A stretch of 64,000 nt of DNA from Actinomycetota bacterium (lineage in GTDB: Bacteria; Actinomycetota; Geothermincolia; Geothermincolales; RBG-13-55-18): the NCBI GenBank assembly GCA_014360685.1, contig JACIXB010000017.1, positions 171,761 through 235,760 on the forward strand, written 5' to 3'. Numbering within the stretch: position 1 is the first letter of the stretch; each line of letters opens with the position of its first letter. A program made the position numbers and the translations under genes. The notes under the pieces are model-generated. The model saw only the letters and a list, made by a program, of their open reading frames with translations, did not search any database and was not told the origin of the DNA. This document shows, piece by piece, positions 31,524-35,652 of this stretch.

Positions 31524-32171
31524 ATGGCTCGTGGGCCGTTGAGGGTTTTGGTGGTGGACGATCACCGGCTGGTGCGGGAGGGATTGATAAGCCTCCTGCG
31601 CTTAAACCCGGAGATCGAGGTGGTGGGAGAGGCCTCGGGGGGAGACGAGGCGGTGGGCAAGGCGCGCAGCCTCAAGCCGGACGTAGTGCTCATGGACATC
31701 AGCATGCCGGGCATGAACGGCATCACCGCCACCAAGCTTATAAAGAAAGACCTCCCGGAGACCAAGGTCATCATGCTCACCATGCTGGACCAGGAGGGTT
31801 ACGTCTACGAGGCGGTCAAGGCGGGGGCCACCGGCTACCTGCTCAAGAACACCGGCCTGGAGGAGCTGGTGAGGGCCATTAAGGAGGTGCACAAAGGGGG
31901 AGCCACCCTGCACCCCGAGGCCCAGGCCCAGCTGCTCAAGGAGTACGTCTACCTGGCACAAAGCAACCGGGAGACCTACGGCTTGAGCGACCGGGAGCTG
32001 GAGATCCTGCAGCTCGTGGGCGACGGCCTGTCCAACAAGGAGATAGCGGACAGGCTGTTCATCAGCATCCAGACGGTGAAGACCCACATCACCCACATCT
32101 TCGAGAAGCTGGGGGTCAAGGACCGCACCGAGGCCGTGGCCACCGCCCTCCGCCGCGGCCTCATCTCCTGA
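31524..32171 (+). CDS. NarL/FixJ-type response regulator
   Basis: DNA-binding regulator of 215 residues, target of the preceding kinase by position and family. Receiver domain (VVDDHRLVREGL, Asp in LMDISMPGMNG, Lys in YLLKNTG) and a C-terminal LuxR-type HTH with LSDRELEILQLVGDGLSNKEIADRL and TVKTHITHIFEKLGV. ATG follows the kinase stop by one base, so expression is coupled. The regulated genes are unknown; the HD-GYP gene upstream is a candidate. Confidence 0.92.
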   Translation: MARGPLRVLVVDDHRLVREGLISLLRLNPEIEVVGEASGGDEAVGKARSLKPDVVLMDISMPGMNGITATKLIKKDLPETKVIMLTMLDQEGYVYEAVKAGATGYLLKNTGLEELVRAIKEVHKGGATLHPEAQAQLLKEYVYLAQSNRETYGLSDRELEILQLVGDGLSNKEIADRLFISIQTVKTHITHIFEKLGVKDRTEAVATALRRGLIS

Positions 32172-32192: not shown

Positions 32193-32210
32193 GATACCCT
32201 TGGGGGTATC
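32193..32210 (+). terminator. hairpin after the response regulator gene
   Basis: GATACCC-ttgg-GGGTATC, a perfect 7-bp stem, lies 21 bases after the stop codon. No proper T-run follows. It is preceded by a GGGGTCAGGTC motif that recurs after two other genes in the window. Confidence 0.4.
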
Positions 32211-32355
32211 TTACGATACCAGCCGGGAATGGGCCGTGGCGGGCCTTATCTTGGTCTTAGGCACGGGACGTCTCGGGGAACGCTATCCTTGATGCTGTAT
32301 CGTTTCAGTAGGCGCTTTTAGGGTTAGAGAACAGGGAAAGGCGCGGGATTGGTGC

Positions 32356-32361
32356 TATCAT
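32356..32361 (+). promoter_or_regulatory. extended -10 element, leaderless start predicted
   Basis: TGC-TATCAT ends seven bases before ATG 32369, so transcription would begin at or next to the start codon. No ribosome site is present. Confidence 0.45.
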
Positions 32362-32368
32362 GATCTAC

Positions 32369-32512
32369 ATGAGTATATGGAAAAAGATATTGGAGTTCTT
32401 TCGGGGAAAGCGTTTCCTGTGCGACGACTGCGCCTACGATTATCCCTCCGCATGCACGCGCCCCGAGCGCCCCAACGCCACCTCCTGCCCGGACTATCGC
32501 AAGAGATATTGA
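32369..32512 (+). CDS. 47-residue cysteine-rich micro-protein
   Basis: Too short for the ORF track, but the reading frame is convincing: MSIWKKILEFFRGKRFLCDD, then CAYDYPSACTRPERPNATSC and a basic end PDYRKRY. Cysteines are spaced C-x2-C-x7-C-x10-C, as in a small metal-binding knuckle. An amphipathic N-terminal helix (WKKILEFFRG) precedes it. I believe similar FFRGK...RPERPNAT small proteins exist in other anaerobes, but cannot check. The start is ATG 32369, seven bases after a -10 box; ATG 32360 would overlap that box. Function unknown; zinc or Fe-S binding is inference. Confidence 0.65.
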   Translation: MSIWKKILEFFRGKRFLCDDCAYDYPSACTRPERPNATSCPDYRKRY

Positions 32513-32650: not shown

Positions 32651-33535
32651 TCAAAGGGTGGTCAGGTGGCGGGGGGCCAGGTAGACGTCGGCCTTTTCCA
32701 GGGCCGTCTCCACGGCGGCCAGCATCTTCTCGCGGTCCTCCGGCAGGTGGCCGTAGATGGGCACGTAGTTGGAGATGTGATCGGAGAGGAACCAGGCGTC
32801 CTCCACCTCCAGCCGCTCCAGGAGCACCTGCAGCTCGCGCATCACCGTCTCCCCGGAGGCCTCCCGGAAACGTCCCTCCTGGGCCTCCCGGTACAGGGGC
32901 GTCCCCGGGAGCAGGTAGAGAGTTCGGGGCCGGATGTAGCCGGGCTGCATGGCGTTGAGGACCGAGGCGGTGTTCTCGGCGTGCTGCCTCCAGCGGTCCT
33001 CGCCCCCCAGGCCCAGGAGGATGTACACGGAGAGCTCGATGCCCGCCTCCTTCACCCGCCGGGCGGCCTCGATCATGTCCCGCGAGGTCACCCCCTTGTC
33101 CACCGCGGCCAGGATCTCGTCGTCCCCGCTCTCCAGGCCGAAGTAGATGATGTCCAGGCCGGCCTCCCTCAACTTGCGCAGGGCCTCCACGGATTTGCCC
33201 TTCAGGAAACGGGCCCCGCCGTAGGGGGAGATGCGCTTCGCCTCCGGGAAGAGCCTGCGGATGTAACGGATGATGTCCGCCAGCTTGTCGGAGTTCATGG
33301 CCACCGTGTTCCCGTCGGCCAAAAAGACCGATTCCACGTACCGGTAGAAGAGGCGGGCCCGCCGCAGGTCGGCCTTGACCTCCTCGGGATCGCGTACCCG
33401 GTATTTCTTCATCTTGTACATCCCGCAGAAGGTACAGCGGTTGTGCGGACAGCCCAGGGTCACCTGCACGATGAGGCTTCCCGCCTCGCAGGGCGGGCGG
33501 TAAAGCGGCTCCTCGTAGCGCAAAACCTCCTGCAT
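32651..33535 (-). CDS. radical SAM protein
   Basis: Radical S-adenosylmethionine enzyme of 294 residues. The cluster motif is GCPHNRCTFCGMYKM, a C-x4-C-x2-C variant seen in one subfamily with HNRCTFC. Further features are the GGE-region ADGNTVAMNS, FGLESGDDEIL, and ILLGLGGEDRWRQHAENT, all typical of COG1032-like or HemN-like barrels. Reaction unknown. Start chosen at MQEVLRYEEP, because a TATAAT ends seven bases before that ATG and no ribosome site is present; the ORF-track start (33592) would lie upstream of this promoter. Confidence 0.85.
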   Translation of the reverse strand: MQEVLRYEEPLYRPPCEAGSLIVQVTLGCPHNRCTFCGMYKMKKYRVRDPEEVKADLRRARLFYRYVESVFLADGNTVAMNSDKLADIIRYIRRLFPEAKRISPYGGARFLKGKSVEALRKLREAGLDIIYFGLESGDDEILAAVDKGVTSRDMIEAARRVKEAGIELSVYILLGLGGEDRWRQHAENTASVLNAMQPGYIRPRTLYLLPGTPLYREAQEGRFREASGETVMRELQVLLERLEVEDAWFLSDHISNYVPIYGHLPEDREKMLAAVETALEKADVYLAPRHLTTL

Positions 33536-33542
33536 ATTTAAG

Positions 33543-33548
33543 ATTATA
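33543..33548 (-). promoter_or_regulatory. -10 element TATAAT, leaderless start predicted for the radical SAM gene
   Basis: On the minus strand TATAAT is followed by CTTAAAT and then ATG at 33535, a seven-base gap. The -35 region is not well matched. Confidence 0.5.
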
Positions 33549-34010
33549 ACCGGTCGGACGGCCTTGGGGATTGACCGTATTGGTAATCTCACCTTGAACC
33601 CACCTCTTAGCGCGAACGGCCTCGAGGGGACACCGGGAGGACTTTTTTCCTCCGCCGTGGGTCAAGTCCCAAAGCTCCATCATGCCATCCCCCTCATGAT
33701 GGCAGCCTAAACGGCTGCAGGAACCAGCTCCTCCACCTCCTTCCCTGCTATCTCGATTGCATCACCGTCTATCTTCTTTATCCTGGCTTTGGCGAGCGAT
33801 TCCAAGCTCATGTACCTGCGGCATATCCGTAAATACGGTATGGCCCTACCATGTCGATTGTTGTTCCCGGCAATCCCAGCCGGTGGTCAACCCATAGATA
33901 TAAAACACCCTTACATGTATTCAGTCTTCAAGGCCTTTTTCCGATTATATGCTCGGCATATACATAGCGCTCTACACCGGGGGCGAGAGGTCTCGGCGAG
34001 GGAGGAGAAG
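33549..34010. other. AT-richer intergenic region, possible decayed sequence
   Basis: This stretch has visibly lower GC content than its surroundings, above all from 33700 to 33975. On the minus strand a 34-codon frame reads MSLESLAKARIKKIDGDAIE and ends EELVPAAV, which looks protein-like but is isolated. The palindrome GGGTCAAGTCCC (33659-33670 area) and CATCATGCCATCCCCCTCATGATGG hairpin are also present. It may be a remnant of an inserted element; no transposase motif is recognised. Confidence 0.35.
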
Positions 34011-35081
34011 ATGCAGGGAGTGAAAACCTGCCCACGCTGCGGGGTGCCGGAATATATCGCCACGGAACACCTCTGGCATCCCAGCGGGTTCATCGTCCAG
34101 CGGAGGGATCCCCGCCACATCATCATCTTCATCGAGAGCGAGAACCTGGAGGCCCTTTTTCGGGGCATAGAGGAGATCCTCGGCATGTCCATCGAGCGCA
34201 TCGTGGTCAACACCAGGCGGAGGGCCGCCCGGGCCTACATGGACCGCGTGATCCCCGAGGCTCTCAAGGAACAGGTCCGGGAAGGAACCCTGGAGATCGG
34301 CCCCGTGATCCAGGGGATGGTGGGCATAGGCCGGGTCTTGGGCTACGGGAGATTCGAGGTGGCCGATTACCGGATGCGGGGAGACGACGGGGACTACATC
34401 ATCATTCGGGTGGAGAAGCCGTACTCCATCCTCTTGGGTTGCGCGGACCCGGTGGCCGCCCTGGAAGCCCTGGTGGGGCGGGAGATGGGGCTCTCCTACC
34501 GTGAGGTGTCCCCTGAGGTGTACGAGATCAAGGCCTTCCCGCAGCCCCACCCCGAGGAGTTCAAGGGGAGGCTGACCATGAGGAAATACGCCTACCCGGA
34601 GGGGGATTTCCGTTTCCGACCCTGTCCCCGGTGCGGGGCGCCCGAGGAGCTGGCCGATTTCGCCTGGGACCTGGAACGGGGATTGATCCACAACCGCCGC
34701 ACCGGAAAGCGCATGGTCTTCTTCGCCCCATCCGTCATGGAGGCGGTTTTCGGGGAGCTGGAGAGGGAGCTGGGTGAGACCATACCCGAGGTGGTCATCG
34801 AGGCCCAGAAACGCCTCACCGCGGCCGGCCTCTACGGGCTGGACAGGGAGAACGCCCGGCAGGACCTGCGTGAACAGCTGGCCATAAGGGGCCTGGGCAA
34901 CCTGAAGGAACTGTCCCTGGGGGAGAAGGGGCTGTCCCTGTTCATGGAGAACGCCGCCGTTCCCCTCATGGTGGTGGGGATGGCCCAGGGTCTTTACGAG
35001 GCCCTCCACGGCGGGACCAGCCGGGTGGAATGGAGTGCCGGGGAAGGAGATTCCCTGAGCGTGGAGGTCAAGCCCGCCTGA
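34011..35081 (+). CDS. uncharacterised protein with two zinc-ribbon halves
   Basis: Protein of 356 residues. Start at MQGVKTCPRCG behind GAGGGAGGAGAAG; the ORF-track start is 74 codons too early. Two related halves are visible, each opening with CPRCGxPE (residues ~6 and ~203), followed by a short beta segment (HIIIFIES / RMVFFAPS), then a helix (EALFRGIEEILG / EAVFGELERELG) and IERIVVNTRRR / IPEVVIEAQKRL. The first CPRCG motif has no clear second CxxC, so metal binding would need dimerisation or other ligands. The domain after each half is mixed alpha/beta. No family recognised. The 3' end overlaps the convergent NUDIX gene by 14 bases. Confidence 0.7.
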   Translation: MQGVKTCPRCGVPEYIATEHLWHPSGFIVQRRDPRHIIIFIESENLEALFRGIEEILGMSIERIVVNTRRRAARAYMDRVIPEALKEQVREGTLEIGPVIQGMVGIGRVLGYGRFEVADYRMRGDDGDYIIIRVEKPYSILLGCADPVAALEALVGREMGLSYREVSPEVYEIKAFPQPHPEEFKGRLTMRKYAYPEGDFRFRPCPRCGAPEELADFAWDLERGLIHNRRTGKRMVFFAPSVMEAVFGELERELGETIPEVVIEAQKRLTAAGLYGLDRENARQDLREQLAIRGLGNLKELSLGEKGLSLFMENAAVPLMVVGMAQGLYEALHGGTSRVEWSAGEGDSLSVEVKPA

Positions 35082-35652
35082 TCCTCTCTATCTCCGCCAC
35101 CGAGGCGTCGTGCAACGCCACCCGGTAGGCGAAAAGCCCCATACCCGTGCCGAGAAGGACCTCGCGGACCGGCCCCTGCAGCTCCTCCAGGGTCAGCCAG
35201 CGGGTTTCCCTTATCTCCTCCCGGTCCTGGGGCTGGAGCTCTCCCCCGCTGCGGAAAGCGGTGAAGACCAGGCTCCTCCAGTCCTCCACCACCGGACCGC
35301 AGGTGAAACGGGCGTGGACGTGGAGGATGAAACGGTCCAGGACGATGTCCAGGCCGGTCTCCTCGCGGGCCTCGCGCCGGGCGGCCTCCTCCAGGGGCTC
35401 ACCGGGGTTGGCCGCCCCGGAGGGAGCCCTGAAGGCTCCCGGCGGGAACATGTGCTTGGCGATGGCCGCGAACTCCCGGTAATCGTGGTCGCGGAAGACG
35501 AACACCGTGAGGTCGTGGTTGCGGTCGTGCTTCTTGGAGCCCTGGAGCATGTTCATCTCCGGGGGGAGTATCTCGAAGGTCATGGAGATGTGGCGGGGTT
35601 TTCCGTACCTTCTCTCCATGTCCTCTATCATCTCGTCGGTCACGTAGGCCAT
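35068..35652 (-). CDS. NUDIX hydrolase
   Basis: Predicted nucleoside-diphosphate-linked hydrolase of 194 residues. The Nudix box is intact: G-x5-E-x7-REUxEExGU reads as GEPLEEAARREAREETGLD preceded by the glycine of GAANP. The first 60 residues (ITFEILPPEMNM region) precede the usual fold and may set substrate choice. Substrate unknown. A TAAGAT box ends six bases before the ATG and no ribosome site is seen, so the mRNA may be leaderless. Convergent and overlapping with the zinc-ribbon gene. Confidence 0.88.
   Translation of the reverse strand: MAYVTDEMIEDMERRYGKPRHISMTFEILPPEMNMLQGSKKHDRNHDLTVFVFRDHDYREFAAIAKHMFPPGAFRAPSGAANPGEPLEEAARREAREETGLDIVLDRFILHVHARFTCGPVVEDWRSLVFTAFRSGGELQPQDREEIRETRWLTLEELQGPVREVLLGTGMGLFAYRVALHDASVAEIERIRRA

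Follow-up and report, generated by a model that had tools for sequence, protein, structure and literature searches.

The described systems closest to the microprotein reported here include two zinc-binding fingers. The PHD finger (PF00628) is a C4-H-C3 cross-brace of about 50 residues with two zinc sites, and the zinc finger of DksA/TraR is a C4 finger with the spacing C-x2-C-x17-C-x2-C. As to expression, leaderless actinobacterial transcripts lack a Shine-Dalgarno sequence, and their -10 element precedes the start codon by about 6-8 nt. The gene analysed here lies in a window of 64,000 nucleotides, by which we mean the whole stretch of DNA that was analysed, within a 2.6-Mb genome whose named relatives are Candidatus Solincola and Geothermincola MAGs of the Actinomycetota. 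The features of the locus are as follows.

31524-32171, forward strand: NarL/LuxR-type response regulator (Pfam Response_reg and GerE), upstream of the microprotein gene, with order-level synteny.
32356-32361, forward strand: putative -10 element TATCAT with TG at 32353-32354 (extended -10), 7 nt before ATG 32369.
32360-32368, forward strand: upstream in-frame ATG-ATC-TAC, overlapping the -10 hexamer, missing in relatives and probably unused.
32369-32512, forward strand: coding sequence of the 47-aa microprotein MSIWKKILEFFRGKRFLCDDCAYDYPSACTRPERPNATSCPDYRKRY, stop codon TGA at 32510-32512, defined from homologues, alignment and selection.
32375-32410, forward strand: amphipathic cationic/aromatic helix IWKKILEFFRGK, residues 3-14, proposed as a membrane anchor from AF2, hydrophobic moments and replacement by transmembrane (TM) segments.
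32417-32497, forward strand: conserved Cys4 module LCDDCAYDYPSACTRPERPNATSCPDY, from the alignment, with cysteine codons at 32420, 32429, 32453 and 32486.
32651-33592, reverse strand: Radical_SAM protein (Pfam), downstream and convergent.

Scans of the window protein and up to 72 members of its family against Pfam, NCBIfam and PHROG returned no credible match to the module, a sequence search of the PDB gave no credible match (RNF4 RING and PHD hits were rejected), and a literature search for the motif found nothing; the homologues are presumably auto-annotated as ‘hypothetical protein’. The nearest likenesses were considered individually. A CDxCxxxYHxxCxxP stretch in some members recalls the PHD finger (best single-member E 2.8e-5). 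The microprotein, however, has only four conserved cysteines and no second zinc site, and the histidine is missing from most members; the match of one homologue (L084; E 3.2e-4) reaches 21.1 bits, below the Pfam cut-off of 24 bits, over 23 of 47 profile positions, and we read it as motif mimicry. The DksA/TraR finger is alike by eye, with C-x2-C near the start and RPxAxxCxD near the end, but the microprotein has Y, F or H at the position of the fourth cysteine and carries its third cysteine within the loop. With hhalign the DksA profile gave a probability of 1% (global) or 7.5% (local, with the hit in the wrong register) against a template of three sequences, and no member matched zf-dskA_traR. 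The RNF4 RING finger (PDB 4ap4) was hit by the window protein at a phmmer E of 6e-6 summed over two repeated stretches; this is a chance match, with an i-Evalue of 0.18 per stretch and cysteines that misalign as a set, and it was absent when the family profile was used. Two members matched the small subunit VdcD of hydroxyarylic acid decarboxylases (NF041205), but the best E of 0.041 is not significant and no decarboxylase genes were noticed at the loci.

The reading frame 32360-32512 (forward strand) encodes 50 aa from ATG 32360 (MIYMSIWKKILEFFRGKRFLCDDCAYDYPSACTRPERPNATSCPDYRKRY) and 47 aa from ATG 32369. An earlier note on this DNA had assigned the whole frame to a cysteine-rich protein with the spacing C-x2-C-x7-C-x10-C. 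Frame and spacing are indeed present, but the span takes in three extra codons, the first of which overlaps the -10 element. If transcription is directed by this conserved hexamer, the transcript would begin at about ATG 32369, giving a leaderless mRNA; ATG 32369 is thus very probably the true start, not ATG 32360, and the 47-aa form the real one.

Every one of the 18 order genomes has the gene, as do 30 of the 31 genomes in the class, each with a single copy and no internal stops. The one exception (G046; 1.8 Mb, 99% complete) also gave no match when a closer query was used. In ungapped pairwise comparisons, nucleotide identity amounts to 69% in the coding sequence vs 26-30% in the flanks (100 nt on each side), and mean pN is 0.21 vs a mean pS of 0.71, with pN below pS in all 153 within-order pairs, so that by these comparisons the microprotein is under purifying selection. 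A second match in the same genome (E 1.27) is due to chance and falls in a gene that reads as thiolase-like. The supposition of the earlier note that the peptide looked like a conserved protein is thereby confirmed at the level of comparative sequence data: its homologues in related genomes retain the cysteines and are free of stops, whereas cysteine loss or stop codons had been named there as evidence to the contrary. It is the conservation that settles the question of a real protein, the motif alone being weak evidence: 3 of the 114 ATG-started ORFs of 40-70 aa within the window also hold CxxC and at least four cysteines.

The window promoter reads TG-C-TATCAT (32353-32361). The arrangement expected of leaderless transcripts is present in the window and in most class homologues: TAnnnT stands 5-7 nt upstream of the conserved start codon in 22 of 30 of them, in 19 at exactly 6 nt, where 1.3 are expected by chance (shuffled upstream sequences; maximum 7 in 500). 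Across the window, a comparable hexamer precedes 1.15% of ATGs. A scan for the -35/-10 consensus found no site, in keeping with an extended -10 that lacks a -35. These data support a leaderless promoter belonging to the gene itself, as had been suggested. In a single genus, two genomes (L018, L019) carry purine-rich leaders in place of the hexamer, which is also absent from a divergent actinobacterial family (f26); leaderlessness is therefore a trait of the class and not of the protein family. Elsewhere in the window, the NUDIX gene at 35068-35652 (reverse strand) has an apparent leaderless promoter of the same arrangement, TGGTAAGAT-ggtccc-ATG upstream of 35652, which suggests that leaderless starts are common in this lineage.

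Conservation is limited to a module of about 27 residues, L-C-D-x-C-x7-C-x4-RPNA-xx-C-P-D-Y. In a MAFFT alignment of 72 members L17, C18, C21, C29, R34, P35 and C40 are invariant and D19, N36, A37 and Y43 nearly so. Over 133 members the consensus reads L C D(95%) x C x [YWF] [DN] [YH] x x A C x R P E R P N(95%) A(95%) x x C P [DE] [YF] [KR]. All four cysteines are present in all 133 distinct homologues, although the extraction pattern demanded the cysteines and RP, so that values of 100% are not independent; in one homologue (L132) K replaces the R. The PERPNAT stretch that had been singled out at the start holds in part: RPNA is constant and is followed by xxC[P][DE]Y, while PERPNAT as a whole varies.

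Beyond the class, one scan of 84,980 species, relying on exact peptide stretches, gave 32 loci, which include records named Planctomycetota, Hydrogenedentota, Sumerlaeota (BRC1), Omnitrophota, Firestonebacteria and Zipacnadia. Later counts come from profile searches of whole genomes. By these, positive genomes number 51 of 68 in the phylum of the Hydrogenedentota genome, 20 of 40 in that of the Sumerlaeota genome, 31 of 294 in that of the planctomycete Poly30 (one planctomycetal match, G559, being weak at E 6e-4), 14 of 151 in that of the ‘Zipacnadia’ genome, 12 of 14 in the small phylum of G319, a record named ‘Omnitrophota’, and 4 of 44 in the phylum of R3-B46. Outside the class, Actinomycetota contributed only four genomes, all of family f26 and with a divergent form; four further matches in the phylum (E 0.003-0.01) are weak and were left uncounted. 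Nearly all carriers have one copy per genome, and searches of plasmids, phages and viral contigs returned no members. Given the uneven sampling and the use of exact stretches in the first scan, the true range of the family is probably wider than counted.

N-terminal to the module, neither sequence nor length is constant. The segment there is usually short and basic (mean net charge +3.8), with 16% W/F, and its hydrophobic moment averages 0.65 vs 0.53 in its own shuffles; the family-wide KS p of about 2e-12 is optimistic, the members being related, and the moment is individually significant in only 14% of members. AF2 places a helix at residues 3-11 of the window protein, with low confidence, and at residues 3-16 of a homologue (L119) with a pLDDT of about 80. 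Prediction and family-wide moments thus agree with the amphipathic N-terminal helix proposed in the earlier note.

In nine Planctomycetota homologues TM segments stand in place of this helix. Two segments are found in L041/L118, L130, L139 and L140 and one in L132, L141, L142 and L144, whereas L135 (L135:1510-1728) is reversed, with the module first, then a Gly/Thr linker, and a TM segment at the C-terminus; all TM-bearing variants come from this one phylum. Upstream in-frame sequence reached a KD19 of at least 1.8 in 7 of 129 members vs 0 of 258 shifted frames. A shifted frame of L141, scanned separately, proved equally hydrophobic, which weakens the TM assignment of this member, and the analysed sequences of L052, L143 and L158 are incomplete at the N-terminus. 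LGAEFFR follows the TM segments of both L041 and L130 although their hydrophobic cores differ, as is expected of coding sequence. Basic residues flank the TM segments, e.g. RRAGLRAGR and IRRGR after the last segment and VRK before that of L135. By the positive-inside rule, these lysines and arginines would generally place the module of TM-bearing homologues on the cytoplasmic side; the topology of L140 is ambiguous by charge. Taken together, these comparisons support the proposed tethering of the module to the membrane. Cationic amphipathic helices also bind proteins or nucleic acid, however, and this counts against the membrane reading.

The neighbourhood differs between phyla. As first noted, and as Pfam domains confirm, the gene stands by itself, with a response regulator gene on one side and a convergent radical SAM gene on the other. 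Of the 30 class loci, 25 have this same radical SAM gene near the microprotein gene, mostly convergent, and in the order a GAF/histidine-kinase gene and the NarL-type response regulator lie upstream. In Hydrogenedentota the microprotein gene closely follows a PocR/AraC regulator in 25 of 29 loci (PocR and HTH_18 domains were found in one tested neighbour); at the loci L173-L202 of this group a protein that reads as MBL-fold often precedes the regulator. In Planctomycetota it follows proteins of a single cluster in 18 of 35 loci; the cluster member that was tested carries an SH3_3 domain and reads as having a signal peptide. In the ‘Zipacnadia’ phylum the upstream protein is a different, acidic one, and the downstream gene reads as epimerase-like. 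No gene or operon partner common to the phyla was found, so that the context names no function. Two further elements of the window locus were observed. A perfect inverted repeat, GATACCC-TTGG-GGGTATC (32193-32210), directly follows the response regulator gene and lacks a T run. An ORF of about 400 aa (33888-35081, forward strand) consists of two similar halves, each starting CPRCG(V/A)PE, and matches nothing in Pfam or NCBIfam; a relative of it (cluster c14) lies near the same place in several genomes of the order.

The explanation we favour, as somewhat more probable than its alternatives combined, is that of a membrane-tethered, zinc-binding Cys4 microprotein at the inner face of the membrane which offers a docking surface to a partner. 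Since the anchor is exchangeable and the module near-constant, position at the membrane appears to matter and the module would be the working part. The N-terminal segment would anchor the module at the inner (cytoplasmic) face, and, in the reducing environment of the cytoplasm, the four cysteines would hold a single structural zinc ion. For four invariant cysteines inside the cell one zinc is the simplest reading, and the mini-domain is probably zinc-binding; the predicted structures lend the fold no structural support, as AF2 confidence was too low (the window protein reached a mean pLDDT of 59.5, a homologue one of 71.4) and Foldseek against the PDB with the better, moderate-confidence model returned no matches. 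The constant surface (CDxC, RPNA, C-P-D-Y-[KR]) may be a docking site that brings a partner to the membrane, a guess inasmuch as the phyla share no conserved neighbour. Within the class, the microprotein would be made singly, from a leaderless transcript and outside any operon.

Among the other explanations, a soluble Cys4 zinc finger whose basic helix docks on RNA polymerase, the ribosome or nucleic acid, in the manner of DksA/TraR-like or other regulators, accounts for the strongly basic N-terminus, for the regulators adjoining the gene in the order and in Hydrogenedentota, and for the resemblance by eye of the module end RPNATSCPDY to RPTADLCIDC of the DksA finger. We nevertheless consider it unlikely, given the DksA profile results above and the poor fit of the TM-bearing homologues. 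A redox, iron-sulfur or heme peptide, in which the cysteines would hold Fe or switch between thiol and disulfide states beside the membrane, is favoured by the four invariant cysteines and the membrane tether, but we know of no Fe-S spacing that matches theirs, and respiratory or Fe-S neighbour genes common across phyla are lacking; this is somewhat less likely still. Attenuation by leaderless short ORFs has been described in actinobacteria, and a gene that is leaderless, short and cysteine-rich could be a leader peptide attenuating the downstream gene. Since the next gene is convergent, the constraint acts on the amino-acid sequence beyond the cysteine codons, and the neighbours are others in other phyla, we regard this as highly improbable. 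To a secreted cationic peptide (bacteriocin) or the toxin of a toxin-antitoxin pair, suggested by the small size and the basic, amphipathic N-terminus, we give equally little weight: the gene is near-universal and single-copy in the class and strongly conserved over phyla, immunity, export and antitoxin genes are absent from the locus, and the predicted topology of the TM variants is cytoplasmic. A chance ORF, for which only the weakness of the motif speaks, is refuted by conservation and purifying selection and has practically no likelihood.

With regard to the family as a whole, we see about an even chance that the membrane-tethered microprotein represents a previously undescribed cross-phylum family that swaps its anchors (amphipathic helix, one TM segment, TM hairpin, C-terminal TM segment) around a near-fixed module. 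The cross-phylum distribution and the replacement of the helix by TM segments were absent from the earlier note. That such a protein is present in nearly every genome of the class and in several phyla, yet has no Pfam, NCBIfam or PHROG model, points to a common function that has gone unrecognised. The exchange of anchors makes a testable statement, namely the same place and the same module. If it is true, anchor swapping around a fixed module would imply an ancient, conserved partner at the membrane side.
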